Source: Steinernema hermaphroditum
Lineage: Eukaryota > Nematoda > Chromadorea > Rhabditida > Steinernematidae
Length of the DNA stretch: 64,000 nt
Assembly: GCA_030435675.1 (NCBI GenBank)
Contig: CM059621.1
Location: 15,128,001 to 15,192,000 of the forward strand
Direction of reading: 5' to 3'
In this document: in pieces, positions 22,220-64,000 of the stretch
Layout of the letters: the number at the start of each line of letters is the position of its first letter
How positions within the stretch are numbered: position 1 is the first letter of the stretch
The notes under the pieces: model-generated
What the model saw: the letters and a program-made list of their open reading frames with translations, nothing else
Databases searched by the model: none
What the model was told of the DNA's origin: nothing
Translations under genes and position numbers: made by a program

Positions 22220-25200
22220 TTAGACGTAGTAGGGCGAAGAGTTCTTCATGTTGTAGCAGAGCTGGTCGTACCAGTACTTCTTGAGGTCCTCGCAGAATTC
22301 GAAAAGCTTTGCAATTTGGTAGTCGTTGACATGCTTGTCGCAGATCATCTGAACAAGAGCTCGATATAAATCGGAACGGAGACACTAGACGCACCTCGAT
22401 TTCGGGCAGAAGAAGCATGACTTCACCGAAGCGGACTTCCGGATTTGGGATTCCGATGGAGATGTAGTGTTCCATGAGGCGGTGGCAGGCCCACTCGCGG
22501 CGCTTTTTGGCCACTTGTAGAGTTTCCGGCTTCAGATGCGCTGCATCTGGAATCGACATTTAGTAAAGGAGATGGCAAATGTGGTGCGTACTGCTTGAGC
22601 TCCAGAACATAAGCATGTGGAGGGTGACTATCTCGGCGTCGGTCATTTCAAGACGAGCGAATGGGTAGAGAATAGTGCGCCAGAGACGGTCGATGGTGGG
22701 ACGGAAGATGCTGAAATGGACATTGTGTATGACGCTTGACTAGAACCGGAGCTGGACTAGATACTTTCACGTGGAACGTGGTGTAAGTTTACAAAAATTC
22801 GAGCAACATTCCGGATAGTCAGGGTAGGAAAAACGATTTGCGTACATATTTTTCTTTCACTTTCATTATGATAGCATAATCATATAAAGATACATAAAAT
22901 GACTTAAGGAAGTAGGATGAACCCGAAACACTCGTTTAACATGTACCGCTGCAAAAATATGAACGAAGCCGGTTTGTTAAAATAGTCATAAACTTTTGCA
23001 ACACCGGAGCGGCCATTATGACATTCTACAACTTATGGAAGCTAGCTAATCGAAAGAAACCAAAAACGAAGAAATGAAGATGTACTTACCCTCGAAATTG
23101 ATTACTGATTAAGAAATTGATTACTAAATTGATTAAGCCGTTGATACAGGAAGATAAATCGAATTAAATCAAATCAACATTGAAGAACATCCGTTCCATT
23201 TCTACATTTTTCCGACATATCCAATAAAAAAATCCACGTTCCCACATCAGGTCTTTCATGTATGTTTCCAGCGATTCCACTCGCTCCCTCAGAAATGAGT
23301 TTACTGAGCGGTCGTTCACGGCCTTTCGCATTGCCCGCAGTGATCGCTCCGGCTCCCAGAAAGCCACTACTCGATGACGGGATGTCTCCGTTCGGTGTGC
23401 TACGCCTCAGCCGGAACCTCGAATTCGTCCGCCCACACCGATCGGATCACTGTGTTCTACTTGCCCTCTTTGTGCCATAATAAGTGTTTTTTTTGCACAC
23501 CGTAATGCCGTTGATTCAACAATTAAAACTGGAAACTTGAAAGCTTGATTCCTAGAATCTCAAAATCTATGCCAATCAAACAAATCAAAAAAGATTATTA
23601 TGTAGGTGAACCGTTATCAAATTAACAAAAAATTTTTTCGGTTCATACATACATAAGTGTAGCATTCTGTTTAAAATCATGATCAACTGAAAGAAACTCC
23701 TCATCCTCAATTTTTTAACGATCCATCCATGAAGAATAACATACCCTTCTAACATGCCTAGAGCGCCGTTCACAGTTTTCAGGAATACTCTAATCGTGCA
23801 ACTAGAACCAGGATACCTGCACACCCTTCACCAGCCTCCTGTGGCCTGTCTAAGAATGGTATTGGGTTGGTAAGTTGAAAATGCACCATTTTTAAAAATG
23901 AATCCTTATTGTTGCAAAGGCACAGATTTCAGTGGGTGTATTCACCATTTAAGTGCTCAGCCTCTGTACACTTTCTGGCGAGAAGTCTGGCCATTTCACT
24001 GCAGAACAGGAGAGATTCCGGGTCGAAAAGTTCCATTTTGTCCGTTTTTGACCTCATTGCAAACTTTGGCTCAATTTATTCGTTGATGTTTCCGACAGTA
24101 CCGCACAAGTAGGTACCCGATAGAGCTGTGGGAGACCTACATGCATAACAAGTACCTGAGTCCCAGCTGAAGATGAGCAGCAGTTTTGTGTGCAATCAAA
24201 AATATCAAACATTCATGCTCCTGCTGGATCTGCTGAAATCCCAAAACCAGTTACTAGTTCTTGCCTTATCTTGAATAAGAGAACGAGGTTTTTCTAGATG
24301 TTAGTCGCAAACTATAGCTGAGAGATTGCTCTATCCTATAAATACGTTTCAGCCCCGTGCTTCTATAATATCGCATATAAGACAGTGCAGCATTACTTTT
24401 CAACCTGGTTCTGACCGCAGCACAATAGTTGACTTCTCTTCCTTATCCATACCCTCAAGTAGTTCTGGGGATCATATGGCTAGAACCCCCTTGAACTCAA
24501 GAGTCACGAAAAATAAAGGAAAAGATTTTTACTTAGAAATACAAATAAAAGCAGGGGTCAATGAGTTGCGATGGCGGATCAAGGGCTCGGAGAGTCGTGA
24601 GAAATCGGAGTTCCCGATTTCCACTTGTAGCCAAAGGCATCGGAGCATCAGCCACTATGGCATTGAAGCACCCTAGCTGGCCGTCCATGTTGTCTGTACA
24701 CCCCCAGCTGGAGTTTGTTAAATCAACAAAAAGTTTAACTACTTTCGGGTCAAGTGCTTTATGGGCAAATTTTTTATCTTCTTGGAATTTGTTCTCACTG
24801 TGACATTGCAAGAAGAGATCAGCGTGTGCGCTTGGAAGCTAAGCTCCTGCTGTATGCGCAGCTAAGACAGCATACCGCCTTTCAAATAAATAGTCCCTCG
24901 GAGAGGTTGTCGAAGGTTCTGTGTTTCGGATGCCCAGGTGGTGCTTCGCGGACCATGAATATAAAAGGATTCAAAGAAAGCGGAGGGCATGCAGGTGGGG
25001 CATCGGAGCGTACCGACTGGAAAGTCAACCAATCGCCCATACGAACGCACTATTCCATCTGATCCAAGGATCACACAGTGCGAAAATAGACGCGAATCAA
25101 AAATGGTGCATTTTCAACTTACCAACCCAATATAATGGCTAGCCTAATCTAGGCCAAATAATGCTTTTTTCTTTGAATCTACGACACTCTTTGAGCATGA

Positions 25201-28200
25201 ATCCTTTCTACAGATCAAATTTGTTTGCCTAAACCATATAAGTAAGTACCACCACAACCACCAACTCGTTGCTTCTTGACCTCAAAAATCGTTCTAATTC
25301 ATATTCTACAAACAAAAACTCACCCAAATTTAGCCTTGATGGTGCGCTCATCGTCGCCAACACACTCGAACCCCGTGGCCGAGGAAGGGACAAACGTGTT
25401 GTTGAGCATGACGAAGTTGCCCAACTCGATCATTACCTTATACTTGGAGGCATGGAAGAAGTGATCGAGACTGAGCTTCTTAACCGAGTATCTTTTGAGC
25501 AGGGCTTTCTAAACAAGACCCGTTCGGGGAGGCTCAAAAATCGACTAGAAATACCCGATCCGCTTCGTCAAGGAACTTGTAGGGGTACATCTTCTCGATC
25601 CAGTACAGTAACCCGCTCAGTTCTACCGTACTCAATTTTTCCACATCCGTCGGCATCATCTTTCGCATCTTTGGACCCCTCTCCGGTTCGTCGAGGAAGT
25701 CGTCGATGCTCGTCAGCGCCAACTGCATTAGCCTCTGGTGCTCACCGTAGCACTGCACAAGCCGATCGAACTCTTCGCCGTCGTCGTTGGTCAGGTCTTC
25801 GCGCCAGGACCGCTCCCGTTCTTTGACCGATTCTCCGCTGGCGGAGGTGCTCGGCAGACTGTGCTCGTAGATATCCTCGTTTTCCACGGAACTTGGCGCT
25901 TCCAGTTTCATTGAGGGCGAAGGGACTTCCACGGAAGAGGGCGAGTTGCTTGGAGCTACAGTAACCCGGTTAGAAAAGGCACTGCAGAACCACTCATACA
26001 TTCACGTGCACCTCCTTTTGTGCGCTTTGGTTTTCGGCGGTTCTTCTGAGAGCCGGTGGGATCGCGACGCGGTTGAACGGCTAAGAAGGTCGAGATGTTA
26101 AAGACGCCGATTGATCGGCAATTTACCAGCTATGGTCATTCCGGCTTTGAGGCATTTGTTGAATCGGCACGCTCTACAAGAGCACCGGACGTCTTCGGTC
26201 ACATCGCAGTCGTTCTTTTTTCGACAGATGTACACCTAAAGCGTTCACTTTGTTATAAAATCCGTTATTTTGAAATGTTTATGATAGGCTGTTCGAACGG
26301 CAAAAATTTTCAAAAGACGGTAAAAATTTCAAAAAAATTGCAAAAAGACGGCAAAAATTTCAAATCCTGGTATAGACTCTATGAAATCAAACTTCGATCT
26401 GTGCCTTGGCTACTCATATTATTAAAACCACTTTTGGTCGACATGACCAGATTGATACCGAACTAATTCGTATCGATAGAGAGGTTGAAAGAGATCCAAA
26501 TTTCTATCAAAAAAGCGACAACTTTCATCAAGGTTTTAATTTAATTTTACTTAGTATACTACCACTTATGGTCTTCGGAGGAAAATGAGTGGCAGTTGAA
26601 TAATAAGGACCCTATGAACTAAAATCTCTTCATCAGCAAGGCTATGGAATCTCAGATGTTAGGCCAAGATCAAAAAAATTCCAAATCCAGTGATTGACTT
26701 AGTGAAATCAAACACATCGATCTGTGCCAGAGTAACGGACATTGTTATTTTATAAGAGTGTTATCATCCATAAGCAGTTAAAACCACTTTTGGTTGACAT
26801 GACTAGAGTGCTATTGAAATAATTCGTATCGATAGAAAGGATCCAGATTTCCAGATTTTCCAGATCCAGAAAGAGATCCAAATTCGCAGGCAACGGAATC
26901 TAACCGAAATATGATGGTACTGTAGCAAGCACAAAAATAAATTAAGTGCACTTGATAAAGAAACATTACAAAATCAACAATAAAATAAAAACAAAAGAAG
27001 TGCTGATTGCAAAAATAATCAAGTTGACTTCTATTTGTTCAATTTTAGAATATTGTTACTTACTCATATTTTGAAAATCACTTTTGGTTGAGATGACCAG
27101 ACTGATACTGAACTATTTCGTATCGACAGAGAGGTTGAAAAAGATCCAAATTGTTATTAAAAAGGTAACAAGTTTAATTAAGATTCTACTTAAATTTTAC
27201 TCGGTGTACTGACACTTACTGTCCTCGAAGGAAAATGAGTTATACTTGTATAATAAGGACCCTATGAACAAAATCTTTCCATCCACAGGGCTATGGAATG
27301 TCAGATTTTAGGCCAAATTCAGCTATCTTTGTAAGCACCAATCTTGCAGCCCGTACGAGTACTTGGCTTTCAGTGCCTAGAGGGTGGTTCACGCAGCCGT
27401 CCAGGCAATGGAATCTAGCTGAAATACAACGAGAAATGTTGCATATATAGACGAACATAAACGTAGCAATTACTGAAATAAGACAAGTACACTTGAAAAC
27501 GAAATATTACAAAAAAAAAAAAATAAAAAAAGAGAGAAGCACAGAAGCATGGCGGTGTTTAAGCAAAAATAATCACACTTACTTCTCTTTGCTCAACTTT
27601 AGAATGCGGCGTATCTGTCCAGAAATATGAACGAGCAGACAAACGTCCTTGGTGTGAACAACTTGAACGAACAACTTCAACAAGACTGCTAGACGCACAG
27701 ATAGATGGTAGCCACAAATATAAAAACAAGCACATTTATTTTAAAAGTTATCATTTATATGAAGACCAACCGTAACCAGACCAATAGGAAAAAGACCCAG
27801 AAGGAGATGGCCGAATGAGATCACAAAAATCACTAAACGCAATGGCGCATAATTTCGCGCTCTTTAGGCGAAGTAGCCCTACAGACATACATAGTCCCAT
27901 AGAACTGGTCCCTTCTTTACTGTCGGTGTGTTTCATTGCGAGTCTGATTTGCAATCGGTCGGGCTCGGTTCAACTCGATTTAATCAGAAATTTGAAATGA
28001 TGGTCTAAACGATCACTCTGATTTTCAGTGAAGTTACGGTAGCGACGCGATTACCCGCCACACCAGCCCGAGTCCTTCTTTTGTCTGTTGTGTGAAGTGC
28101 GATAATTCGTCATCCAAAACTTTTCAAGAGGTCCGCCGATTCGGGAATACAAATCGTGTATTGTTCTGTGCTCTATCTCTCTAGTATCAAGCAGCTCTTT

Positions 28201-30606
28201 TTCATTTTGACTCCACTGCTCAGAAACTGAATTATATTCGGTTTCGAATTTATTCGGCTCGAAATGTTAGAAAATCAGGAAGCGTATCAGAAATTGAAGT
28301 TTCGGGTACCAAAAGAACAATGTACTTATGACCCAACACGAGCAAAGCATATGTGTCAACCGAGCTCTGTGCAGAACCTGTAATAAACACCAGTGATACA
28401 AACATGCACTTTAAAGAAAGAATGAGTAAGGTGCGATATTTGATGCCTGCTTAAGATGCTTCTCTCAACACTACTTTGCGAAAGACGAACATTTCGGAAT
28501 GCTCAAAAGTGCGGAATTTGAGTATAATGCTCAAAAATACGTAGACTAAAAAGTGGATAAGTTCAACGATAGAAATACATATGTATATGCTATGATTCGA
28601 CAATGTTTGACCCTGCGCCTCGTTCCTAAGAGCGCTACGCGTTTTGTGACCAAAGAGAGACAACATATCATATCAATATCACGGGGCACTCTATCGCAAC
28701 ACCCGATAAACACACAACATAAAATCGGGACGTAACTCATGTCAACGAAACATTCTTCAGTGTTCCCATCACAAATTGATTAACCACAAAGAATCAGCAA
28801 GCTAGGTCTAGAGTTAGTGCGTTTAATAAACACCGCCATGTAACAAATCAAAGCAGTGGTCAAAAATATGACTTTTAATGATAGTGGAAGTTGGTCAACA
28901 AGACGGAAATTTTGGGACAAGTCCTCTCACATTTTTTGAAATACGGACTCGGGAACATACATCAAAAGTGCTTTGATATCAAATGATTACAGGCACATGT
29001 CTTGAAGTTCTAAGTACTACATGCCTCAAAAATGCCTTTTTAAATTTGCACGGAATGAATTTGTTAAGAGTTTGTAAATCTCTTGAAAGATATTAACAAC
29101 AAACAACAAATAGGTTTCGACTTCGTGTGACATACAAAAATGTTGTTTTCAATCATAGTGGTCAAAAAGACGGAAATTTTGAGAGAAATCCTCTAACGTT
29201 CTTTGCATTACGTACCTGTACAGCATCACTATCTAAAGTGACCGATGTCACATCATCAAAGCATACGTCTTGAATTTTTAAGTACCTCTACCCATTATGA
29301 TATCAAAGTTGGCTGATTGTGCCAAAAGTAACGGCTTAAAGGCGAAAATTTGTACTGCTGTGAACCGACATGACATGCAAAAATTCTCGTTTACAAGAAA
29401 TGAAAAGCAAGACAAAAATGAAAAGTAAGCTGAAAAAACATATCAACAGCCAACAATATGGCTCGATTTCAAAAATCAAACAACCGAAGTCAACTACCGG
29501 CTGTCAAAATGTATGAAGGAACTGAACAAAAAAGTTAGTAAATCTGTGACTTTTCTCGTCGTTATTATTATTCCCGTGAATCAGGTGACTATCACACAAA
29601 ATGTAAATTATATTGTTCATGTGGGGAAAACAGATGATAGATATCCGAAATTCCATATTTTTTACACACTCGCACAAAACGGTCTCCCCAAAAATGATGA
29701 GTTGTATTACATAGGGTCGTCCCGAAAAGGGTTATCTAGACACAGGTGTAGAAAGCCATCTAGAACTTCAGATCCGTTGCAAGAAAAGACGATTTTCTTC
29801 AACATTGACACTTCCGTATCTATGTTCTATTAATATTAGGAACTGCGCTACGGATGCCCAAAAATTGATCTTTTGTATTGAGTCCGTTTCTCTTCTGTTG
29901 GATACCCAAACTATTACAGAGCGCCAAAAATTGATCCTGACACCCCTATTTATATTCCATGATGTAAATAATTGCGACTAACGTTGATGAATCCGGTGGT
30001 TCACGAAAAAGAGTGATGAAAAAAACATCCACAAGTTAGATTCTATGTATCAGGGTGGACATAAAAATATGTCCAATAAGATGGAGCGCTTTGCAAGCCG
30101 TCAAAACAGTCTAGCTAGCAAAAATTTAGGGCACATGATTCGTTGGGCAAAAATACTTCCTCTGGGATGTTTGGGCTGGAAAGGTTCATAAAAAAGAGTG
30201 ATGAACGAAATATCTAGATTTTCTATAGCAGGACTACATGCACAAATATGTCCAATGAGATGGAGGAGCTAGAAAACCTTCAAAAATAGAAATGGCCTTA
30301 AATTTTCTGTAACTTGGTATGTAATAAATAATGTACAAAAATTTGCTGGTTCATGAGAAAACGGATGAAAAGAAAATCCTGGATCGTGTAATTCGAGATT
30401 CAACGGCTCAAAAATTGATACCGTAGTAATGTTCCACAGTTGTTCGATGTTGCGAATAAGAGGTCAACACAATCACCAACCTGATTGAAAGTGACTGCTC
30501 GTCTGAAGAAGGCATTGCAGCTCCGGCACGAGATGGCGCCGTAGTGGAGACCGTCGGCTTCGGCGTGACATATCGCGCAGGGAATGCCCGCGTAGTCCTG
30601 CTTCAT
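22220..30606 (-). CDS. Nuclear hormone receptor (nematode supplementary NHR), complete
   Basis: Eight coding exons (minus): 30606-30481, 26235-26127, 26080-26006, 25955-25555, 25508-25324, 22710-22592, 22546-22395, 22348-22220; all phases join to 431 aa. The DNA-binding domain spans residues ~10-75: finger 1 CAICHAEADGLHYGAISC with P-box CRSCNAFF (C10, C13, C27, C30), then finger 2 YICRKKNDC..CRACRFNKCLKAGM (C46, C52, C62, C65). A basic hinge and a Ser/Pro/Glu-rich linker follow. The ligand-binding domain runs from about residue 180 (LDHFFHASKYKVMIELGNF, IFRPTIDRLWRTILYPFARL, a conserved MTDAEIVTLHMLMFWSS) to a C-terminal helix KYWYDQLCYNM near the stop. It is a ligand-type transcription factor acting in the nucleus; its ligand is unknown. 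Small introns are 45-50 bp, but introns 1 (4245 bp) and 5 (2613 bp) are huge and repeat-filled. The upstream frame stays open beyond the ATG to an acceptor near 30798 but has no earlier ATG. Confidence 0.9.
23262..23380 (+). repeat. Diverged fragment of the retroposon family in NHR intron 5
   Basis: It shares TCCAGCGATTCCACTCGCTC, GAGTTTACTGAGCGGTCGTT and GATCGCTCCGGCTCCCAGAA with the full copies. It lies inside the 2.6-kb intron, inserted sense to the + strand and so antisense to the gene. Confidence 0.6.
26404..27330 (+). repeat. Diverged direct repeats in NHR intron 1
   Basis: A ~260-bp unit (about 26412-26672) recurs at about 27060-27318, sharing CACTTTTGGTTGAGATGACC-like, TTTCGTATCGACAGAGAGG-like and AATAAGGACCCTATGAAC segments. 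A third partial copy is at about 26745-26900. Confidence 0.7.
28860..29300 (+). repeat. Second pair of direct repeats in NHR intron 1
   Basis: About 28861-28980 and 29140-29240 share CAAAAAT, AAGACGGAAATTTTG, AATCCTCTAAC-like and a following TACGGACT/TACGTACC block. Old and diverged. Confidence 0.5.
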
Positions 30607-31160
30607 TGTGCGCGTAATGGTGACAGATGCGTTGCGTCGGCGGTTCGGAGACCGGCCGATCGGAGGAGCGCACCGAGAGGGGGGAGTGCAGCGGGCGGCG
30701 CACAACACGCCGGCTGAGCAGAGCACACAGGCGGCGACGGAGAGGTCGCGGGCGAAACGTTTCGAGCGTTGTTCGTGTCCGCGGCGACGCCGCTGATCTC
30801 TGAAAACAAATCGGGCAACTTAGATGGACGCACATCGGGGATGCCCGATCAATCGATCGCGGAAATGAAACGCGGGAGATAACGGCGCGGAGAAGGTGAA
30901 AGTGGCCGGCGTGTGACGACAAGCTGACCTTCGGCGAGAGGACACAAAATGTTTCGTGGCGGGCGCGCGCCACCGCCGCGGAAAGTAGGTAAATGAACGA
31001 GGAAGTGACTGAGGGGTTCAATTGACCGCGACAAACAGGCTCAGTATTCGGATTCGGGTTGAGGGCAGGTTTGTACGCAGTGCTGGTGACCAACAAAAAA
31101 GCGCGACAGACAGCGAAAAAAGTGATCTCGTCGGGCACAAAATCGGGAAAATTTAAAGTT
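30607..31160 (-). promoter_or_regulatory. GC-rich 5' region of the nuclear-receptor gene
   Basis: A GC-rich island within an AT-rich area, directly upstream of the NHR start, with an acceptor-like TTGTTTTCAG (minus strand) near 30798-30808. It is probably the promoter, 5'UTR or spliced-leader acceptor zone. All long frames here lack family signatures and read as composition artefacts. Confidence 0.45.
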
Positions 31161-32160
31161 GTTTTAGTGGGTGACCGCGGAAGTTTTCGCATCATGGAAA
31201 ATCACCCATGTGAACCAATCTGTTTGAATAATTCATGCTTATCAAATGGAATGGCTTCAGAATCATGCCGATGAGTATGTACCGTTTACGGCTGCTGACC
31301 CTCAAAAATTGAACTGTAGAGTTTAATCCAGTTGTCAGCTAGTTTTGAATATAAATTCGCCTACGTTTACTGTAAAATAACACAGCTCTGCGATGTAGGG
31401 AAATGAAGAATTGCATACTGATTGATATAAAAGAAAAAGGAACGCACAAAACAATATATATAATTTATGCTTGTCAACTGGAGCGGTTTTTGACCCCCAA
31501 AAATTGAACTGCAGAGGTCAGTTTCCAGCTAGGTTTGGATGCTAATTCGTCTACGTTTACTGTAAAATAACACAACTTTCGATAACAAAAATTGAGTGCT
31601 ATGAAAGAAAAAAAGAATGCCCAAAACAATACATTTTGAATTTTATTCGGACAACAAGCTCAATAAACAAAAAATATATTGGTAGATGAGGTTTATTACG
31701 TAGTCATAAGAATGTCTTAAACGGCTACAAAAATATAGAGACGAATATGCATTGCTTGTGTCTAAAACGTCTCATTCAATCAGCAAACTTTTATTCTAAA
31801 CTTTCGCCCAAACTCTTGTCTCTCAGCACTTTTATCAAAATTCTATTCCATTCAAAATTTTTCTGAGGACTCTCACTCGTGTCACGACGGTGTACTGAGC
31901 GTGTGGTATGATGGCAGTTGTGAGTGTTCCGGCCTTCCAAAAGGAATTGGGACACCCGGATGCAGTAGTCGAAGGTCACTTAATTACCATGGACTTAACA
32001 AAAATTATACTGATCGCATGATTGGCTGATCTAATCCAATAGTTATCTCTTTTTAAGCTCTATTTACATGGAATAAACGCAAGCCTTGGAAAACTGTGAA
32101 TATGGTTACATGACCCTTCCCTGACTAATGCTAAAGGTACAAATACGTGGTCCCACCACT
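31160..32160. other. AT-rich spacer with direct repeats
   Basis: CAAAAATTGAACT occurs near 31301 and 31496, each followed by a similar block ending AATTCGTCTACGTTTACTGTAAAATAACACA-like sequence (about 31300-31395 and 31495-31575). No gene seen. Confidence 0.5.
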
Positions 32161-32169
32161 GCTGAAAAC

Positions 32170-32510
32170 AAGATGTCCGATGCTTTTTTTGCGGTTGCGT
32201 GAGATGTTATCCCAAAGGTCGCCGACGCTCTGAGGACTACAAAAGACGTATCTACCGGACCACAGACGCCCCGAAAAAGTGGAGTTCTGCCGCAAATTCT
32301 GGAGTTTTACCAATTCCCACACGTCCACGAAGGGCGCCGCCACAGTTTCTGGAGGTACGACGATTCCCACGCCTCTCTGATGCGCGCCGTCTCCAACCGG
32401 TTCGACATCAACACCGCGCCAGGGATGAAGCCTGCCGCAAAGAGACATCCTCTGTCTGTATATTTTCGGTGTCAAGCAAAGCGTAATGCCTTTGATCGGT
32501 GAAATAAAGT
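32170..32510 (+). repeat. Diverged relative of the element at 54.4 kb
   Basis: It shares CTGCTGAAAACAAGATG-like, AAGGTCGCCGACGCTCTGAGG, ATTCTGGAGTTTTACCAATTCCC-like and a 3' end GCGTAATGCCTTTGAT with 54363-54698. The 3' end also resembles that of the 13-bp-TSD retroposons (GCGTAAGCCGTTGATTC), suggesting a shared retroposon tail. Confidence 0.6.
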
Positions 32511-35080: not shown

Positions 35081-35084
35081 TTGG

Positions 35085-35375
35085 TTGAACTGGGCAGTGT
35101 ATTGATGGCCATTTTTAGGGTCTGAGTTCGACTCCTGCTCAATGAATTTTTTAGTTTTTCTTCTTATTTCACGGTAAAAGCATATAACAAAGACAGTACA
35201 AAGACAGCATCTTTAACAGCAAAAATTTTCGTGGACTGTTTACATGGTCATGTGTGCGTACAATCTACTTTTTCGAACTCCAAAAAGCGATCAATCATAG
35301 CGTGGCGAGATCCAGAATTTGAACTGCGCACATCGCGGAAGGTTACCTTATCAAATCTACTGAAGGCTTCATGAA
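35085..35375. repeat. Two tRNA-like SINE relics in opposite orientation
   Basis: + strand near 35090-35150: GGTTGAACTGGGCAG (A-box-like) with GAGTTCGACTCC (B-box-like). - strand near 35290-35370: AGTAGATTTGATAAGG and GTTCAAATTC. They lack proper stems. They resemble the tRNA-like parts of the 10.5-kb element and a further one near 51840-51900. Confidence 0.4.
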
Positions 35376-40565: not shown

Positions 40566-40654
40566 AAGAAGCGGAATTGCGTATGTTTCTCGGTTCTCTG
40601 AAACAGAAGTATACGGTAGTGATGTCAGCGTGGGACAATGGACGCTGGTCGATG

Positions 40655-46490: not shown

Positions 46491-46493
46491 AGT

Positions 46494-48185: not shown

Positions 48186-48189
48186 CATT

Positions 48190-48410: not shown

Positions 48411-48484
48411 CACATTGCAGCACTTCTTAGGCTTCTCTTATAAAGCATACAGGATTCAACAAGCAATGTCGCCCGAAAATCAGA

Positions 48485-50390: not shown

Positions 50391-50394
50391 GATC

Positions 50395-50745
50395 TTGGTG
50401 AAGCATCTGATTCCCTGGACCGAAAAACACTTATAGGACCACGGACGGGTGTTCCAGCATGACTGGGCACACGCCCATGGATCCAAATCAACGATGAGCT
50501 TCTTGGAAGACCAAATCCCATGGTTTTGGGACAAGTCAGTTTGGCCCTCAAACTCGCCGGATTTAAACCCGATGGACTACGCAATTTGGTCCATTCTGGA
50601 GGAAAAAGCCTGCCGAAGAAGACACGCCACCTTGGACGACTTGAAGCGCGATCTCCTGGCCGCTTGGGAAGAAATCAGCGTGGAAACACCAGCGGCGATC
50701 GTCGAAAATTTCAAGAAGCGAGTGAAGGCCTTCTATCGACGCTAG
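50395..50745 (+). pseudogene. Truncated mariner/Tc1-type transposase (DD37D) remnant
   Basis: C-terminal part only. QHDWAHAHGSK supplies the second catalytic Asp; 37 residues later comes the Asp of WPSNSPDLNPMDYAIW. The spacing is that of DD37D nematode-type mariner relatives. The frame ends naturally (FKKRVKAFYRR stop), but a TAG lies in frame about 20 residues upstream and the N-terminal DNA-binding domain and first Asp are missing. The 3' end of the element (ACTTTCCGATAACCCTGTA) is at about 50871-50889; no matching 5' end was found. Confidence 0.8.
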
Positions 50746-50889
50746 AGGAGGCCATTTTGAATGAAATTCACGTTTTATGTGTAATTCAGCGTGCTGAATA
50801 ACGTAGTATTGTTCGTTTTTGGAATTAAAATGGTTTTGTTTGAGAAAAATTGTGTTTTTCATGTTGCAGAACTTTCCGATAACCCTGTA

Positions 50890-53800: not shown

Positions 53801-54350
53801 AGGTTCATCAAGTCGAAGCAAAAATTGAACTAGTTCGTTGTAAAACTCATCGGTTTCACGCCACGAATTTTAGTAACTCAAGTCCCATATTTTATCTAGA
53901 AATGACGAAAAGACAAAATTCAAGACAAAATGATGCCACAAATCAAACACAATCCTCAAAAATCATCTTTCTTTAACTGATAGTTAAAACACAGAATCTC
54001 CTGTGTTCGTTCAATGCACTCATTTTTCGATGGGAAAAACAGTGTTAAAAAACAAGGTTCCGTGACAATCTCTCGTATCTATCCACATTTTCGAGCTCAT
54101 CCAAGCCGGAACGCGTCTCTTCCTGATAGACTCATCTATTGATCAGTCGTCCTGTAACTTTTCGGATTTCGGACGGAAAAGAGACCGTGGACCGCATGAT
54201 TAGCCACTGCTTTCAAAAATAATAAGAATTTACACTGCGCTGAACACAATAGAACACGAAGCTCAGAAGTTACGGCGCGTATAGAAGACGATGAATGGAA
54301 CTTTAAGATAACGAACAAGGAACAAAAATAAAAATAGCCTTTACATATCT
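50890..54350. other. Repeat-rich spacer, no supported gene
   Basis: Fragments of the retroposon family at 51338-51362 (CCAGCGATTGGTCGGGTCGT) and 52196-52222 (antisense, GGGAGCCGGGCCGATCATTG). A tRNA-like relic near 51840-51900. A direct repeat AACAAGCAGAGATGTTCG at about 52655 and 52998. At 53340-53560 there is a GC-richer block with repeated CGGCGAAAACA / GGCCGAAAACA. Confidence 0.45.
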
Positions 54351-54352
54351 GA

Positions 54353-54708
54353 AAACTGCTTACAACTGCTTACACTGCTGACAACAAGATGCCCGACGCC
54401 AGGAATCTGATGCCCAATTCTGCGTGAGAAATCACCCCGAAGGTCGCCGACGCTCTGAGGAAACTGCGAAGACGCAACCAGGACCACGGATTCGTCTCTC
54501 CGAAGCAGAGGCGAGCTTAGAAGCCTCCCTGTGCCGCAAACGCCCCAGAAACAGAAGATCCGTCGCCACTTCCGGAGTTTCGCCGATTCCCAGATGCTTC
54601 GACATCTACGCCACGCCAGGCCGGCTGCTACGAGACATTCTCTGTTGTCTAGGCGAAATGCCTTTGAAATAAAAATGCAATAAACTCATGAAGTCGTGAA
54701 ACTGCTTA
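54353..54708 (+). mobile_element. Retroposed element with 10-bp target duplication (second family)
   Basis: AAACTGCTTA at 54353-54362 and 54699-54708 flanks a ~336-bp element that is homologous to 32170-32510 and ends in an A-rich tail (GAAATAAAAATGCAATAAACTC). It carries open frames on the + strand but none is shared intact with the 32-kb copy. Its 3' GGCGAAATGCCTTTG resembles the tail of the 13-bp-TSD family. The origin may be an old mRNA or a SINE. Confidence 0.5.
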
Positions 54709-57700
54709 ACGGCCTGAACGACTGATTAAGTAGGCTGTGTATAGGGTCTGCTCACTGGACATAAACAAAATGCTGAACGGTACAAAAATGTACATGATTG
54801 CGATATTTCAAAGACGTACTATGTAACTGTCCCATAGGTGCAGGCGACAATTTTGCATTCAAAAATTTCTTAGCGAATTCTTTTAGTTATAACGCACCTC
54901 CAAAGGGTGCGGGATCTTAAGATGGACATTTAAGTGGGGGCGTTTAGCGAAAAGTTGAACAAAACAAAAAACTACCACTCCACATGTGATATATTGAAAA
55001 AAGCAAATCTGAACAAAAATACGGTGTGAAAATGGCCACAATGAATAGTCGCCGGCAAGACCTTCACCACGTCCATCTTGAGGTGCCTCCCAGACCCACC
55101 GTGTCAAAAAGGCATTTAACGTCAAAAATCGAAAAAATCGCACCCTTAAAAAGTGTAACAAAAGTAACCGAAGGAGAGAAATTAAAGGATCAGTGATTAG
55201 GCAAGCGACGGAACACCGTGATGATGAGGGGGAAACCACAAAAAAGCGGTCGATAGCGTCGAGTGGAGCAGTGTGTTTCGCTCTCCGCCGCCGACGACAG
55301 CAGAACACACGCCCTAGAGTGCATGAAACATTCGACGAATCGATAATCTCTTCTTCCACTTTTCCTCTTCACTGTTTCCTATGACGTCAAGTGTGTGTGG
55401 TCGGCTAAGGAATTTCAACAACAGCAAAGATCTGTCCCTATGTTCTAGTAGAAAAACAACGGCGATGATCGATGCTTTAATATTTTAATGAGTTTTCGCT
55501 ACCTCAGCGCCGACTTCCGCCTTCAGGTGACAGAGATCAGATGAGGGAAAAGGCACCGGAAACGGCGGATTTGTAGGCGCACTTAGGAAAACACGGCGCA
55601 TGTGGAGCAGAGATCGGCTTGTTTGTGTGCAGCGAGGGAAATGTCTTTTTGACATTATGGGGGAGCGGCTAAAAGAGAAAAATAGAAAACTGTCTCAGGG
55701 AAATTTCGCATTTGGGATGCGCTATATATCTACGGTAACCTAGAGTCGTATCTCCAAAGAGTACGAAGTAACGCAAAATCCAACAAAGTGAAATAGGTCT
55801 TTCGAGAAGAGACACAAGTATATACACTTCAATATACAATCTGCATATAAAATCGATGTTTTCGTGCATGATTTAAAAAAAGTTTTTTTTTAGCTTTTTT
55901 TAAACTTATAAAACTAAGACTGTTCTCATCTTTAAAAGTGATTTAAAGTGATGCTGCGATCATTGTGTCTCAAAGGTTTTTCGAAACGCGACCAATTCTA
56001 GAACTCCACGAGTCCATGATCTCTTTCCGTTGATACCGCGTTTGGGGTTATTCACAAAAATTCTGGATTTCCTGAGTGAATACAACCGTAGCTCATTCCT
56101 TTCTTCCAAACTGATTTAAATTTTGTGAAAAAAGATCGTTCTCTTTTGCACGTTTTCAAAAATGCGATCGCTGATTCGGGAACTCCACAAGCAAAGATCT
56201 TGTTTATAAGATAGTACGACCTTTTTCCGTTGTGCCCTGATACAGCACCTGTCCATTCTACCATGTTCATTGTGTGTTTCTTCATGACAATTCACGACCA
56301 TCGACTATTATACAAAACCGTTCGCAAAATGGGCAATAACCAAGACAAGAGACAGCACAAGAAGCATGAACTGCTTGAAAAACAGTGTGATAAATATACG
56401 GAGCCAGTTGTTCCAACTTGTAGTGGGATAGGACATCACCCAGGCGCACGACAAGCCTAGGAGAGCTAGGCTTTTACGGTCTTTATGCGGATTCGCCATC
56501 TTGCTTTCGGTTCAGCAAACACGGCAATTTTTTTTTTGCGAGAGGTTTAGTGTGTGTTTCGGTACACTTGTTTGACCTTTTGAACTCAGTTTGAACTATC
56601 GACACCTCTGTGAATAGTGTTGGGATGATGATAAGGAGGAGTGAGAAGCGAAACGCATTGGATCCGCAAAGCACTAATGCGACCGCCGACCGCCAAAAAT
56701 TTTTTCGACCACACCAAAACTCATTTATCGACATTTTGATATATCTCAGAAGTTTCCTATCATCGAAAAAATGAGACCTATCTTCGTACTATTATACACA
56801 CCACACCATTTCACCCAGCAGAAATCAAATTCACATGAAAAAATTAACAAAAAATCAACCAAGTGAACTGCACAAAAATAACGCACTTAGTTGCTAACAT
56901 AATATATGGTTAAGCCAAACCAAAAGTTACTCTCTCCTTGGCCCTACCTTAAGAACATGTTGAGTCCAATAAAATGAAGAAAGAGCGAACAGGAAGTCAC
57001 CCAAAAATAATGAAGCTTTGGAATCTCAATTTCTATACCAAAAAAGCCAATTTGAGTGGCGGCGCCGGTGGAGTCAACTCATTTAACGAATCTCAGAAAG
57101 AACGAGTGGACGATTCGAGCGACGCTGGGGCACAAATGAAGACGTGTATGAAAGATCTTCTTGGCGAGACGGTGAAACTACGACTCTCTGGTGTTTCAGG
57201 CCTTCTGTTCCGACACAAATTTTACCATTTCGGCACAAATGAGCAAATAGATCACAATGTAGTGTTTGTACTTTTAGACACGCTCTCTTTCATTTGTATC
57301 GAATGACGATCCACCGATTCACCGATCCGCGATCTAGTTCACCGGCCAGTTCCGCCAAGAAGACCGTCACGGCCATTACCGACCTTTGCGCTTGGTCCTC
57401 ATTAAGGTGACGTATAACCAAGTGATTCGCACATTTTCTTCCAGTTGTGAAAGAACGACCTCTGAAATTAACAGAGATCGCATCTGACGAACACCAAAAA
57501 GAACGATTTGCACAAATACCAAAAGGTCACTTGTTTCTTAATCTCCAACAAAGATTTTAGCTTTCCTGTTCTCGGAAATAATGATTATTTTGAAACATAT
57601 TTTGGTATTGCTGAAATATCCAAAAACGTGGAACGATACTATCAAAAATTCATGTTATAGTGTCTCTTTACCTGAAATGTCGTTTAGGATGTTACCGTTC

Positions 57701-57720
57701 ACGGCTGTTGTTTTTGTTGA
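54709..57720. other. Spacer, no supported gene
   Basis: AT-rich with CAAAAAT motifs. 57070-57230 holds a rearranged antisense fragment of the retroposon family (CTTCTTGGCGAGACGGTGAA; AGAAAGAACGAGTGGACGA). A minus-strand frame at 55.0-55.35 kb has no signature. Confidence 0.4.
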
Positions 57721-57722
57721 GA

Positions 57723-58280
57723 CATTGTTGAGAACGGGTCTTTTATTTGTGCCCCCAGCGATCGGTCGGGTCGTCCACTCGCTCTCTCTCTCTCTCTCTG
57801 AGGCTGTCTGAGCCGGATGAGTTAAGTGAGCGGTCGTTCTCGGCCGTCGGTGTTGGCGCAATGATCGCCCCGGCTCCCAGAAGGCCTGGAACACCAGGGA
57901 GCCGTAGTTCCACCGTCTCGCCAAAAAAGCCAGTCACGACCGCCCGACTCTACACGCGCCGCCAGAGAATCCGAAAAAGCGTTGCAACTCCGAAGTCCAC
58001 GCCGCCAGCCGAACCGAAGATGACTCTCCGCTCCGTTGGCTCTACTCCACCGCTATTCCACTTCCGGAATCAGCTCTTCACGACTTCGATGCCCGCGCAA
58101 ACTAATGGGAACGCTGCATTCTATTCGGATTCGTCTGCTCCACCGAAATCAGAAGAAAATCAGCGACCACGGTGTGACTATGTTCTTCTTTGTGCATATA
58201 TGAGACGTCCTGCACGGCGTAAGCCGTTGATTCGGGAAGATAAATCGTGTAAAAATCGTGTAAAAATCATTGTTGAGAAC
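57723..58280 (+). mobile_element. Full retroposon copy 2 with 13-bp target duplication
   Basis: CATTGTTGAGAAC lies at 57723-57735 and 58268-58280. The shared body begins GCCCCCAGCG at 57751 and is about 95% identical to copy 1 through the 3' GCGTAAGCCGTTGATTCGGG; the tail is tandem GTAAAAATC units. Fifteen bases (57736-57750) between duplication and body are unique. A longer (TC)n tract than copy 1. Same orientation as copy 1, 11.2 kb away. Confidence 0.88.
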
Positions 58281-61010
58281 ATGATGTCCCAAAAATTGCA
58301 ATGAGTGGCGATAAAATAACACCAGATAGCAAAACACTGTACCTTCCCTAATTTGGTCGTCGTAACTAGCACCACAAATGGATGGATCTTAACCAACACT
58401 AACTAAAAACACGTTTGCAAAATTTTGTTAATGCATCAGCACCTGCTGACCTTTGTATCTTCATTCTGTGTTCGGTCAAAAATTAATAGAACTTTACATC
58501 TGCTCTGTTACAACACCCGATAGACAGCAAATGAGCGGTGCACCCCCCATGTGAGAAGTTTAAAATCACGTCATTCGCAGACAATTGAATGTTTTCCTTT
58601 AAAATAGACAGTTGCTGGAAAGAACTTCCATGGTGACCACTAAACGTGAGAAAGAGGGCGGGCAGGAAAACAGGTTGCCTACGCTTAATTGAAACGTAAA
58701 CTGTCGTTTTCGAAGAATTATGATATCACGTGCAAGCATGAAGATATATTGGCATACTGTGGTTCATTCAAAACACACACATGACCCTTGAATTGACATG
58801 GACACATGTATGAATGTGAAGACTTTTTTAATCAAAAGCCTTGTTGGGTACGGGTTATTTTCCTGCAAAAATGTATTCTACCTCATTTAACTATTACAGA
58901 CCAAACACCAAAAAATAATCCTTCGATGTTCCGCCCTTGCGTGACAAAGATCAGAGCGTCGTAAAGCAAAACGGAAAGAACGGATTCAGGGAATTTCTCA
59001 AACATCTGCATACTTGGATGCCAGTTTACGACAAAGATCACTTTTGCAATGTTTCACTCGATTCATTAAGAACATATGGGTCCCTGAAAATTAGTTTCAA
59101 GAAAGATATATCGAGCAAAACAGAAAAGTTTCTTTAATTAAATATTAAACGAAATTTAAAAGAAAACGCTAATAGTGATATCCGCAGTGAGCTTACAGTT
59201 ATTCAGGAGAGAAATTAACTCTGTGAAATTTCGAACCGAACCGCATCTGATAGCCGGCTAACAGTTCCGGCTATCAGATCTGTGAAATTTGGAATTGGCT
59301 CCGAGCCAAGTGAACAGGCTCGAATTTAGTTTGTTTCACTGTTAGAGGCGCTACTTCACCTACTTCGCATGCAAATCTTTCAGGCAAATCAAATTTTGAT
59401 TTCCAACATTCCCAACTATTTCATGTCTTGAATAGAATCATTCGTAGAATTGTTCGAGAGGAGATCAAAAATATAGCTCTGAATTTTAACATTGTGATGG
59501 TAAATGGGATAGTCATTGGTATTTCGACGAAGCTTTGCGTATACGGTCGGATTCGCCTAGTCTTCCAGCTGTCAGCGGTTTCCCGAGGATGAACTTTTCT
59601 TATATTATTATGTTATTCATTGAGAGAACGATGGGTAGTTCTAAAATAAATTCGTGAACGATCGGAAAACAAAATTTTTTCTCCCATTCTTCTAAGCTTT
59701 GGTCAATACACCGTACACAACATTCGTATCTTCCGATTTAGCATAATACATATGACATGGATACATGCGCCCAGCCTGCTTGTCTTATGAATAAAAGCAC
59801 CCATTTCTGAAAGAGAATCCTCGATATGTAGACACAAGGTGTATTATAATGTTAAAGGTCGAAAATTGGGCGTTATCATGTTTTAAGAGATAAAAAAAGT
59901 CTATGATGTGAAGTGTCAAAAACCTCAAATACTGGACAATCATCTCATTTGAAATGTGTTCACATGAATGGGAGTAGTTCAATCAAAAATTACTTCTCAA
60001 TAACGAAGTTTTCTCAAGGAACGAACCCGTTCAAAACACTCAGTGCAACCTTTTATTTCGGATGACTCACGTGATTTAAAAGTGTAACTCCTGTCAACTC
60101 TGGCTAATCAAATGTTGTTTTGCAAGCACATTTCCTTTGTGTGGGAGACTGGACTTCCGCCGACAGAACCAAAGATCTCGTTTTGGGAATGTGCAAAACG
60201 AATAAAGGGGAGCAGACGTGGTTTGGCAAATGTATGCGGAGGTTGGGTGTAGTTTCGTGAAACACCTGCATTTAAAAGTACACCTGAAGCCGACTTTTGC
60301 AAACACAGGTACAAGTGTAGGCAACGAATGTATTAGGTTGGTGCATGGATAATGTTTGTCCATCGCCTTCGCCTGAACGCAGATGGCTAACCACAAAAAA
60401 TGGCACATTCCACCACCACGACACCAAATCTCCAATGCACCCAAAGGGGGGGGGAAGGGTTCAGCCCCCTATTCAAGGTGGGCTTCAGATTTCTGGTGAT
60501 GATTCCATAACATGTATGACAGACACAACTCTGATGATATGTGGCGAATATGAGAGTGGGGCTCTGTGCGCTGTTTCTACATTAATGAGAATCACAAAAA
60601 TAAATTTAAAATCCGTCTAATTATGAAATTACTAAGAGTTATCCCCACCTTCTCCTTTGGCAGAGGCGTGTTGCAGATGCCGTATATGACCTCAAATTTT
60701 ACAAGGACCGAATTCTTCAAAATTGTGATGCGCATACAGAAGGAACGATTCTTCGACTGCAGAAAGGAATGTTGAAAACGAAAAATAGTAGTCCTACGTT
60801 CGTTCCATCAGATAGTCGTTCCATCTACGTACAAGGATTGAATTTTTGAAATTCTTGAAGACAGATATCGAATACTGGTGTCACGCATTTTTACGAGTTT
60901 TGCGGTCTACTAGACGAGACGTTGGAACTATCGGTTCTCCATGTGGTTATCGGTTCTCTATGTGGTTCTCCAATGTTCAAAAATTCAGAAGTAAAAGGCG
61001 AATAAGAACA
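58281..61010. other. AT-rich spacer with a hairpin
   Basis: A strong palindrome at about 59248-59281 (ATCTGATAGCCGG ... CCGGCTATCAGAT) followed by a GGCTCCGAGCC block. No supported exon. Confidence 0.5.
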
Positions 61011-61014
61011 TGTC

Positions 61015-62175
61015 TTGTTGAATGCAAAAATTGACTAGATGGACGTCAATAAATGGCAAGCCTTCGTGGGGATCACATTATAAGATCGGCGAGGGACAGC
61101 CTATCAAGTCTATAACGCGGACTTGTCTATGCGATAAAGGTGACGATGTAGTAGTTCAAAGCGACAATTAGGAGAAATCCCAAGGAAATGGACAACGGTA
61201 ATGGACCTACAGTCGGTCGAAAACGACTGTCGTTTTCCAAGAAACATAAGAAATCACGAGATGGGTCGATACCTATGTAAAATATAATGGGACATTGAAG
61301 AATGTCCTAATACTTGGTCATCTCTAATTCTGCAATGAAATTCTTTTATTACTCCTTGAATACGAGTTTTTAATGCAAATTATCGGATTGAGCTTGATCG
61401 ATTAGACATTTCAATGCTGACAAAGATGACCAAAAATTGACTCGGTGCACCTCAGTAAATGGTACGTAGCCGTCAACAATCATCAATATGGAAATCTACC
61501 GTTTCTCATCTGCTCAAGACGCGGTTTATTAAATATTAGCATCATGCCATACACCTCATATGCATGAGAAATGACAAATCTTATCCTAGTGAGTCATAGC
61601 CCTTCCACGTCTTTATGACATCGAGCAATCAGCGCAAAAATAAATCAGTCAAATGTAAAACTCGATAAACACTAGTTCGATGTTTCTTGGTAATAGAAAA
61701 AGAGATTCTCCGCGTGTTGACTATGTTGAGCCGATGTACTAAGTTGCACAGATTTGCCGCAAAAATGTCGGATCACTTCATTGAATGTTTGCTAGCACAC
61801 ATCAATATTTCACTCATCTATTCATTGATACCCTCATTGCTTGATACTGGAGACTTGGCTCAGATGCAAAAATTCACCTCAGCAAATGGTACACAACAAG
61901 CAACCAATATGGGAATAGAGCGCTTATGATCTGCTTTAGACGCGAACTAGTAAGATTGACGCTCGATGATCGTGTTCGAAAAGTCAATACTAAGGCCCAC
62001 AAAAATTCATATAACGGTATTCCACTAATCTCAAATGCATGAGAAACGACCAACAACATCTTCACGCAATGCACAAGCTGAAAAATAACAAACATCAAAC
62101 ACAAATCTGAATAAACACTAGTTCGATGGACAAACAAAGAATGTATCGTAACCGTAATAGAAAAAGAGATTCTCC
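61015..62175 (+). repeat. Three diverged direct repeats of ~450 bp
   Basis: GCAAAAATTGAC..GTCAATAAATGGCA near 61025, CCAAAAATTGACTCGG..CAGTAAATGGTA near 61431 and GCAAAAATTCACCTCAGCAA near 61866 head copies. The second and third also share AAACACTAGTTCGATG and TAATAGAAAAAGAGATTCTCCG (about 61668-61715 and 62113-62175). Confidence 0.75.
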
Positions 62176-62384
62176 GTATGTTGATGCGTTCAGTGTTTTG
62201 GAAGTAACTGCTTTTATGTCATATACTAGAGGGCACGTTGGGTCAATTTGATCGCTTTCAATGTGAAGAGGCGAATGATCATGATGAAAGATGCGTACTT
62301 GATGAGTACATCGTTGGTTATGTGAGCATGAAGCTTAGGCGCAAAAAAATATGGCGCAAAAATATCGAATATTGGTAGGACGCA

Positions 62385-62510
62385 TCTTTACGAGTTTCAT
62401 GGTCTTCTTGGCGAGACCGTGGAACTACGGCCTTATGGGAGCAGGGCCGATCATTGTGCCACCAACGAAGGCCGACAACGACCGCTCACTGAACTCAGTT
62501 GGGGAAGCTG
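62385..62510 (-). repeat. Antisense retroposon fragment
   Basis: TTCTTGGCGAGACCGTGGAA, GGGAGCAGGGCCGATCATTG and AACGACCGCTCACTGAACTC match the reverse complement of the family 5' half. Confidence 0.65.
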
Positions 62511-64000
62511 GTCTAGGCTGCACAGTTTTGTGAAGAAAATGTAGAATCACCTATTGATGGACCTTTCCCACTCAATTTCGGTCTTATTCGCTCCACTTTA
62601 TACTTGTGCTTCCATATCGGTTGATCTATTTCACCTCAAGATTCAATTAGCAATCAAAAATAACCATTATATAAACTGAAAACCGACGTTCAGCAACAAC
62701 AGCATTACTCTACCATCTGTCAACCTCAGCCCGGCTACCAAATGTACCAAGCGGCAGCGGTTAATCGGTGAAGCAGTTAGGGGCTTCCTTCCCGAGTGAG
62801 CTTGGAGTCGCTGCAAAAACATGCAGAAGATTCATTCAAAAATTTTGTTATGCACGGGCTAAAGCTATCCAGTTTATGGACGAGTGAACTAACCTCAAAA
62901 ATGGTACGAAAAAAAGACAAAAATTTTATACGGAATAAGAAATCTTTCGAGAAGGTACTGCGCCTTTCGTTGCTCCCACCACCCAAAAGAGTTTGATGAA
63001 TCTAGTACTTCCGCTTAAGGACTATGTTTAAATTTAAATTTTTATGACCACCAAAGCCCGCAGGGCTATGGTGTCTCCATGTGACTACTGTCGATAGATC
63101 ACTGGTGTTTTTATCTGCAGCTAAAATACGTGTAATTGATAAGTATTTTTAATTAATAATGTAATTAATGCCAAAAATCCGAAAAACCTTCAAGACTTAG
63201 CCCAATAAAATATATACGATACACACACATGGTGAACACACTGTGATTTCCCTTTCCCCGTTCACCATTGAGTCATTTGGAGTCGTCAAAGCAAAACAAC
63301 GTCCATGGACACACATTAAGTGCATGCGTTGTATAGTTTGTGTTTCACTTCGTTTGAATGCTTAGTCAGTTTATTGTTATTTTGTGCCACAAGGACTACA
63401 TCTCCTATTTTCGACAATTGTTTGTTGTTTAGAAAGTGCGCACTTCCTCCTTCATTGCCAGAGATCAGGTATGAAAACAGATCGCTGTTTTCTATAAACT
63501 ACCTCTGAAACGTCATAGATATGTTTGGAATAGTGTTCACACATGGTCTACTAAGGTCCACACTACTAAGGTCCACACACTAAGGTCCCCTACAGTACTA
63601 GAGTTAAAATGAGGCGACAACAAAAATTCGATTATTTGTTGTATTCTTCGAATTAATTACAATGGATGAACAGTTAGGCGTCTTTCATTTGTGCGTTCAG
63701 CGATCGATTAATTGAGATTTTCGTTACAAAATTCTTTGCAGTCTCTGTCCAGGCTATCTACGGTCCGACTTCAGAAAACAAAAATGAAAATAATACGGTA
63801 ATGAACACGACATCCTTGCGGACCTTTCATATTTGTCGGCTATCAAAATTTATATATGTGTACGCCACCTGAAGCATTTAACAGTTAACAGAACAGTTAA
63901 CCGACTCAACCGACTTAAGTTTAACATGAGGAAGAACCAAAAATGCTAGTCTCTTCTTGCCGTCTTTGCAATTCCATCTTCCTCGCCCAGAAACAGTTAA
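62511..64000. other. AT-rich spacer to the window end
   Basis: No supported gene. Eight CAAAAAT motifs and a short tandem repeat at 63543-63595. Confidence 0.4.
63543..63595 (+). repeat. Tandem ACTAAGGTCCACAC units
   Basis: Three to four imperfect units: TACTAAGGTCCACAC, TACTAAGGTCCACACA, CTAAGGTCCC. Confidence 0.75.

Follow-up and report, generated by a model that had tools for sequence, protein, structure and literature searches.

The heptamer ATTTTTG (CAAAAAT on the complementary strand) anchors a recurrent unit of ~26 nt, (A)ATTTTTG-N16-TCC with the TCC at +23 to +25, in the genome of Steinernema hermaphroditum, and an estimated several thousand such units are gathered into two or three Mb-scale superclusters. 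The heptamers occupy introns and upstream regions, mostly in the sense of the host gene, with exceptions. We tentatively favor the interpretation, with rather less than even confidence, that the units are small-RNA-producing sites in a motif-coded supercluster that would work much as the piRNA clusters of nematodes do, except that the host transcript determines the strand. Germline defense after the loss of Piwi is an open question for nematodes beyond the Caenorhabditis group, and a signal that marks sites in such numbers in a few Mb-scale blocks would provide a direct handle on it, in a species that is kept as a laboratory organism. Should the word bind a protein instead, it would amount to a label for chromosome domains carried by nascent RNA, and labels of that kind are rare.

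A strand-polarised heptamer domain

The DNA analyzed is a 64-kb stretch (the window), whose + strand carries 135 copies of CAAAAAT and nine of ATTTTTG (129 and seven in the interval 22790-63945). Pooled over both strands, these 144 heptamers compare with 27.97 ± 5.47, and a maximum of 43, in 100 dinucleotide-preserving shuffles. A sequence-only reading of the window had claimed a strand-polarised CAAAAAT with a rare reverse complement (fewer than ten copies) and had proposed this comparison with shuffled sequence; polarity, rarity and excess are all borne out, and its hand count of 115-120 copies from 28.5 kb onwards agrees with a computed 117. A small correction applies to the left end, which had been described as free of the heptamer, as five copies lie at 8289-8998. 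The run of exactly five was also seen correctly: at 26-64 kb the strand ratio is 123:7 for AT5G, 35:25 for AT4G and 9:2 for AT6G, and one-mismatch neighbors of the heptamer are near baseline (the top neighbor is at 38:10).

The bases flanking the window copies are variable, tandem arrays containing the heptamer in the window are few and small, and 65 of ~450 sites in the window and flanking loci fall, with 12 bp on either side, in local paralogous alignments (65-95% identity; those above 95% were left out). The copies are therefore not one repeat family, and the earlier reading was right on this point. No Rfam family reached its gathering score in the window.

To the right, the polar domain runs on more thinly as far as ~97 kb (window coordinates), interrupted by a gap near 68-76 kb and by a single 4-kb bin of reversed polarity at 88-92 kb. 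Over the whole genome the two strands are balanced, with 20,128 versus 20,165 heptamers, and the polar domain of the window is thus one of many. A search for long stretches of one polarity and for points where the polarity switches had been suggested, and both do exist. The one-strand domain that had been noted stands, but it is not a chromosome-long polarity, since the genome is balanced and direction mostly follows transcription.

The heptamers are spaced about 300 nt apart on average. A kinship with periodic A/T clusters had been suggested. Such clusters (PATCs) in C. elegans germline genes are short A/T-rich words in the introns and flanks of some genes, whereas here a single exact heptamer with strong polarity is found and its spacing lacks the 10-bp periodicity: among 123 heptamer sites there was no peak near 10-10.6 bp, and the highest peak was at 15.4 bp. 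The suggested kinship is thus not upheld.

Features of the polar domain. Positions are in window coordinates unless prefixed C1.
Feature	Window position	C1 position	Strand	Basis or content
Polar domain	22792..63944		-	129 ATTTTTG on - (CAAAAAT on +), 7 opposite
Nuclear hormone receptor (NHR) gene, recognised part (zf-C4 DNA-binding domain and ligand-binding domain)	22221..30600		-	family matches, home-made gene finder
NHR intron, possibly with an extra exon inside	22712..25324		-	5 sense, 0 antisense; predicted bounds
Intron splitting the zf-C4 domain	26239..30465		-	AUUUUUG 21 sense, 0 antisense
Exon pair bounding the zf-C4 intron		C1:15154134-15154238, C1:15158466-15158582	both -	family matches
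Sequence 5' of the last NHR exon recognised	30601..63944		-	gene-finder exons only, unconfirmed; polarity and density unchanged
Full unit example, ATTTTTG-N4-T-N11-TCC	28513..28538	C1:15156513-15156538	-	pattern match
Full unit example	30262..30287	C1:15158262-15158287	-	pattern match
Full unit example	33813..33838	C1:15161813-15161838	-	pattern match
Full unit example	37745..37770	C1:15165745-15165770	-	pattern match

The unit and its conservation

The second signal of the unit lies at a fixed distance and is absent from four control words. C stands at +24 in 40-43% of heptamer sites and, with the domain set (358 or 355 sites, having at least four same-strand neighbors within 2.5 kb and at least four of these per opposite-strand one) taken out, in 37% of the remaining 147 sites. 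The stretch from -2 to this favored C spans 27 nt. No two same-strand heptamers lie less than 21 nt apart, a short-range exclusion that is footprint-like. In the domain set, the sequence is AT-rich upstream of the unit, higher in G+C at +17 to +25 and AT-rich beyond, a pattern that faintly recalls the profile of piRNA loci presented in PMC6436959. No complementary or covarying pairs that would form a stem stand out after the heptamer at 410 sites. As a probe for a link with 5' splice sites, GGTAAGT-N20-50-ATTTTTG was counted genome-wide and occurs 63 times, versus 35 for the pattern read backward, the sole control.

In the paralogous alignments, the heptamer is intact at 85% of the 65 sites, which are partly non-independent, versus 43% expected, and its flanks drift. 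Control words were intact at 64.7% of 34 sites (ATTTTGN), 53.7% of 95 (five-A words), 47.1% of 17 (ATTTTTC) and 28.6% of 7 (GTTTTTA). One locus (L020; 67% G+C, no heptamer) was excluded from these counts, from the flank counts and from gene training. Signals for a promoter or for processing, with bodies that are free to vary, would be expected to show such a conserved heptamer in drifting flanks.

These results bear on the suggestion that the polarity is a neutral by-product of a strand-biased process of mutation or insertion. The sense strand is richer in T than in A even after the heptamers are masked, as this idea would have it, but the idea is contradicted by the exactness of the word with its near-baseline one-base neighbors, by conservation at twice expectation and by the second signal at a fixed distance, and we consider it barely credible.

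Host genes and the strand rule

The two thirds of the window in which the heptamer abounds had been labeled gene-poor, which is partly wrong, as 22.2-30.6 kb holds a nuclear-receptor gene with long introns. Sense to antisense heptamers number 27:0 in this gene and 17:2 in IFT46, and the recognised exons of both contain no sense copy. Our main sense claims are limited to genes confirmed by Pfam or family matches, with exon bounds predicted by a home-made gene finder. The sequence upstream of the last recognised exon of the receptor gene may comprise long 5' introns, an outron or intergenic DNA, and is presumably transcribed.

Motif matches lay on the same strand as the closest family exon in 15 of 15 cases within 25 kb (nine exons) and in 18 of 20 at 40 kb, among the best family matches listed and with exons near motif matches being mostly on the - strand. 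The rule has exceptions. At locus L014, ATTTTTG is 13:2 on the + strand beside predicted - strand genes, one of which has one sense and 10 antisense copies, and a predicted Srh gene has six of each. Apart from the confirmed genes, predicted genes have too few heptamer sites or, as in these two cases, disagree. Elsewhere, 20 inter-exon intervals totaling 29.7 kb, presumed to be introns as they lie between exons matching successive parts of one domain family, contained 12 sense and seven antisense copies (5:4 in those of at least 1.2 kb, 7:3 in the shorter ones). The heptamer as a general property of introns is thus unsupported.

An explanation without small RNAs, which is conceivable though on balance unlikely, is that AUUUUUG is a site for an RNA-binding protein or an Sm-type ring that coats the transcripts of particular chromosomal domains, as a "paint" or packaging signal. 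The strong sense bias, the recognised exons devoid of sense copies, and the mean spacing combined with short-range exclusion would all suit such a mark, as would the word itself: the exact A-U5-G heptamer on the sense RNA is identical to the U2-type Sm site of spliceosomal snRNAs, given as 5'-AUUUUUG-3' in PMC12359035. Unlike at snRNA Sm sites, however, no stem follows here, the copies are confined to chromosome domains and a second signal lies at +24, and a coating protein leaves this fixed C unexplained. General packaging would not stay within superclusters, nor does the 12:7 ratio in introns elsewhere fit it.

Superclusters

Genome maps place superclusters at C1 13.2-16.6 Mb and C4 about 12.1-13.4 Mb, and probably a third at C3 0.9-2.0 Mb. 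Among the first 100 of 283 matches to a unit-like pattern, 81 lie in C1 13.22-16.52 Mb versus 19 in C1 0-13.2 Mb. For two sub-patterns, C1 13.22-16.61 Mb holds 34/87 and 26/96 matches, the focus on C4 8/87 and 13/96, and that on C3 5/87 and 8/96; the sub-pattern maps have no comparable focus on C2 or C5. The mapping patterns were derived from C1 15.0-15.5 Mb, so matches there partly reflect the derivation itself; this does not apply to C4, C3 and the remainder of C1. Two new stretches of 10 kb each, picked with the help of the maps, were dense and polar as predicted, with a polarity of 33:1 and C at +24 in 17/33 sites on C4, and 23:2 and 10/23 on C1. Loci L043 and L044 were picked for their pattern matches but lie outside the sequence used to derive the patterns; gene predictions in L043 were too weak to give a strand, and in L044 one fair prediction (score 49) agrees in strand.

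Confinement to some chromosomes would also be consistent with an array of DNA-binding sites, in which a factor with a long footprint, such as a C2H2 zinc-finger protein, recognizes double-stranded ATTTTTG-N16-TCC and marks chromosome domains, as a pairing center or a silencing or anti-silencing domain. The bipartite ~26-bp motif and the exclusion of overlapping sites fit this. Yet there is no obvious reason for sites in DNA to track the gene strand over tens of kb. A meiotic pairing center array is a cluster of motifs bound by a zinc-finger protein near one end of each chromosome, whereas the foci here are on C1, C4 and C3 only; other motifs could serve C2 and C5. We regard this explanation as doubtful.

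Proposed small RNAs from host transcripts

The small-RNA interpretation brings together the exact motif, the +24 signal, exclusion, conservation, superclusters and the sense bias in identifiable genes. Units in introns and upstream regions, mostly along host transcription, would act in or through nascent RNA and give rise to small RNAs. From the numbers only, an RNA-dependent RNA polymerase might start opposite the C at +24 (or at +25) and copy up to the upstream edge of AUUUUUG, and the product would be an antisense RNA of 26-27 nt with a 5' G. Against this interpretation, a C at +24 in just 40-43% of sites is weak for a start nucleotide, and the sense rule has the exceptions of L014 and Srh. 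In addition, known nematode piRNA loci are not polarised by the host gene, as in P. pacificus (PMC6436959). Finally, the genome has 91 Piwi-domain matches; three Argonaute exons compared, from eight retrieved stretches, were all nearer to AGO than to PIWI structures, a point against the interpretation as far as these three go.

A published table gives Piwi as "No" for nematode clade IV (PMC4323106). More speculatively, and in our view improbable as a complete scheme, a lineage reported as Piwi-less may have evolved small-RNA superclusters of its own, in which AUUUUUG in the host pre-mRNA would define the ~26-nt unit with no independent promoter and host transcription would set its strand. We consider it highly unlikely that, as with the Ruby motif, each heptamer promotes its own short transcript as an autonomous piRNA-like gene. 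The copy number, the scale of the clusters and the AT-rich upstream sequence speak for such genes, but the polarity goes with the host gene, a purine initiator at a fixed distance was not found, and that table reports the clade to be without Piwi. Moreover, the region upstream of U2 (one gene) lacks ATTTTTG and contains CTGTTCA, reminiscent of the Ruby motif. Judged by this one gene, the heptamer is not the usual snRNA or piRNA promoter element, which also counts against the favored small-RNA interpretation, and it was rejected as a known snRNA promoter element.

A search of titles and the starts of abstracts on CAAAAAT in nematodes and intronic AUUUUUG, and of titles on Steinernema genomes and small RNAs, a scope outside which the S. 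hermaphroditum genome paper falls, yielded no such clusters. The closest known systems each share part of the pattern. The Ruby-motif piRNA superclusters of Caenorhabditis (chromosome IV in C. elegans) likewise consist of many short-motif loci in Mb-scale, AT-rich clusters that are both intronic and intergenic, and Mb-scale superclusters were found here in the maps and the fresh stretches. The loci there are transcribed into 21-nt 5'-U RNAs and the motif is CTGTTTCA, whereas the enriched word here is ATTTTTG with its fixed TCC rather than an upstream CTGTTTCA-type motif; exact CTGTTTCA occurs twice, counting both strands, in 40 kb (L010, L011, L014 and L019). A further difference is that strand here mostly follows the host genes, and that Piwi is reported to be absent from the clade. 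The piRNA loci of the Pristionchus type, which lie within introns of active genes, are similarly intronic, motif-bearing and numerous. Those of P. pacificus are dispersed and divide about evenly between sense and antisense (PMC6436959), whereas the units here are mostly sense and superclustered.

Strongyloides ratti belongs to the same nematode clade, and its 21-22U loci are gathered on the X in two clusters, one of 1 Mb and one of 2.7 Mb (PMC9203780), resembling the present units in Mb-scale clustering. For those loci no upstream motif was found, whereas the units here are known from the motif alone. The 27GA small RNAs of Strongyloides are RdRP products, 27-nt polyphosphate RNAs with a 5' G or A that are antisense to their template, and in an indirect fit the stretch from -2 to the favored C of our unit has the same length.

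Strand polarity of ATTTTTG

The sequence-only reading had described the heptamer CAAAAAT as heavily biased to the + strand over most of the window, and direct counting bears this out, with 135 copies against 9 of its complement ATTTTTG (129 and 7 within window 22790-63945, the interval then delimited). With both strands summed, the 144 copies observed compare with 28 ± 5.5 in dinucleotide-preserving shuffles of the window. Between 26 and 64 kb ATTTTTG is found 123 times on the - strand vs 7 times on the + strand; one-position changes at all seven positions stay near baseline (maximum 38:10), and variants with four or six T give 35:25 and 9:2. The sequence flanking the heptamer varies between copies, and tandem arrays in the window are small and few.

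This bias belongs to a more extensive structure, of which the window, at C1:15128001-15192000, shows the edge. In the searched genome (90.6 Mb, 60 contigs) of the tylenchine nematode S. hermaphroditum, ATTTTTG is balanced between strands (20,128 and 20,165), as is a control, the heptamer read backwards (8,816 and 8,722). Locally, polar domains of either direction occur in flanking 10-kb stretches (34 vs 3 in L018, 20 vs 0 in L011); other stretches are mixed or empty. Local pairs at gaps of 300-330 bases are on the same strand in 30 cases and on opposite strands in 2.

The unit around the heptamer

Among 410 local sites, base 24 after the first A (+24) is C in 40% vs 20%, and the dinucleotides TC and CC are in strong excess at 23-25; the C signal at +24 was not seen with four control words. 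The logo of 358 domain sites (at least four same-strand neighbours within 2.5 kb, and at least four per opposite-strand one) has A at -1, a pyrimidine, not G, at +11 and T-C-C at +23 to +25, that is, a unit of about 26 nt. A-runs between +7 and +24 are depleted, no paired positions stand out downstream of the heptamer, and no two same-strand copies lie less than 21 nt apart, where we estimate that about 14 such pairs would be expected if the density of wider spacings continued. Of 65 sites in paralogous alignments of 65-95% identity, 84.6% keep the heptamer intact, vs 42.6% expected from flank identity; there, other seven-letter words with five T are intact in 37.6% of 213 sites and the best other control, ATTTTGN, in 64.7% of 34. 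The exact word, the fixed second signal, the exclusion of close pairs and the conservation together point to a functional unit. In the paralogues, bases -8, -7, +8 and +10 look less conserved than farther flanks, over few sites and possibly as an alignment effect.

Superclusters

Genome-wide, ATTTTTG-N17-C accounts for 9,886 of 40,293 sites (24.5%); for its control, read backwards, the figures are 3,612 of 17,538 (20.6%). If true units have C in about 41%, we estimate that they make up about one fifth of ATTTTTG sites, some 7,000-8,000. The longer pattern ATTTTTG-N4-T-N11-TCC has 283 matches vs 54 in the control; taken by position, the first 100 divide into 19 from C1 0-13.2 Mb and 81 from C1 13.22-16.52 Mb. 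For two disjoint sub-patterns, with T next (87 matches vs 15 control) or A next (96 vs 11), all matches were listed, and many fall in blocks on contigs C1, C4 and C3 (see table); the final 1.6 Mb of C1 holds none of the 87 T-next matches and one A-next match. Of 38 pairs of adjacent unit matches at most 5 kb apart, 36 have both members on one strand. Two fresh stretches picked from the unit map gave heptamer ratios of 33:1 (C4) and 23:2 (C1), and 17 of 33 and 10 of 23 copies, respectively, had C at +24. A selected, oriented unit arranged in superclusters is well supported. The block size is on the scale of nematode small-RNA superclusters, such as the 1- and 2.7-Mb clusters described for S. 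ratti 21-22U loci (PMC9203780) and the two 3-Mb piRNA regions described for C. elegans chromosome IV (PMC6436959).

Features and unit blocks with their coordinates
Feature	Location	Strand	Remarks
zf-C4 domain, two halves	window 30466-30582 and 26134-26238	-	family match
IFT46 gene	L018	+	Pfam E 4.6e-69
C1 block	C1:13.22-16.61 Mb (T next)		34 T-next, 26 A-next matches
C4 block	C4:12.29-13.42 Mb (T next), 12.07-13.33 Mb (A next)		8 T-next, 13 A-next matches
C3 block (probable)	C3:0.87-1.98 Mb (T next), 1.00-1.66 Mb (A next)		5 T-next, 8 A-next matches
Argonaute loci	C1:12.99-16.99 Mb		nine among the matches listed
Argonaute pair	C1 12994868 and 13006620	opposite	equal scores
U2 snRNA genes	C7:8605-187264		19, near-identical scores; tandem array of about 9.9 kb
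G+C-rich stretch (L020)	C1:14892001-14902000	both	67% G+C; open frames up to 1,546 aa
Inverted duplication	C1:15238830-15243330 and L009		4.5 kb, 96% identical; right of window
Paralogous long frames	window 1905-2993; about 14 kb leftward	-; +	363 and 402 aa

Relation to host genes

The introns of the nuclear-receptor gene, whose predicted protein joins a ligand-binding domain to zf-C4, carry 27 sense and 0 antisense AUUUUUG, with 21 of the sense copies lying in the zf-C4 intron of 4,227 bases; its recognised exons carry none in sense. Two IFT46 introns of about 2.6-2.7 kb have sense:antisense ratios of 8:1 and 9:1. Both domains become sparser towards the gene 3' end and extend upstream beyond the recognised 5' exons. 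Predicted ABC-transporter and MFS genes give 6:1 and 18:3. Among the matches listed in the C1 supercluster, units agree in strand with the nearest family exon in 15 of 15 cases within 25 kb (nine exons) and in 18 of 20 within 40 kb (ten exons), many of these exons coming from one receptor array. Exceptions to the sense rule are a predicted Srh gene (6:6), the flanking stretch L019, which is mixed, and the flanking stretch L014, where ATTTTTG is 13:2 on the + strand adjoining genes predicted on the - strand; one of these genes takes in 10 antisense copies and 1 sense copy. Because twenty intervals elsewhere, each flanked by consecutive parts of a Cys-loop-receptor or nuclear-receptor domain, gave 12:7, polarity looks like a property of chromosomal places, not of introns in general.

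Possible function

The tendency of units to lie on the strand of nearby genes implicates RNA or transcription. We favour candidate small-RNA units that would depend on a host transcript over autonomous promoters at each heptamer, given the supercluster scale, the reported absence of Piwi from clade IV (PMC4323106) with three S. hermaphroditum Argonaute exons nearer AGO, the roughly equal sense and antisense P. pacificus piRNA loci described in PMC6436959, and the one U2 gene examined, which has a CTGTTCA element upstream instead of ATTTTTG. An RdRP product beginning with G would fit such host-dependent units, numerically only: the stretch from -2 to +24 spans 27 nt, and C is the favoured base at +24. 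The main rival is that AUUUUUG serves as an RNA-binding mark, the same word being described as the U2-type Sm site (PMC12359035); a DNA-binding array comes next.

Several other loci were noted (see table). The Argonaute loci lie in or beside the C1 supercluster. L020 resembles bacterial DNA and would be either an inserted segment or contamination of the assembly. The protein of the window frame at 1905-2993 is 78% identical to S. hermaphroditum QR680_018605, which is probably the other copy of the pair.
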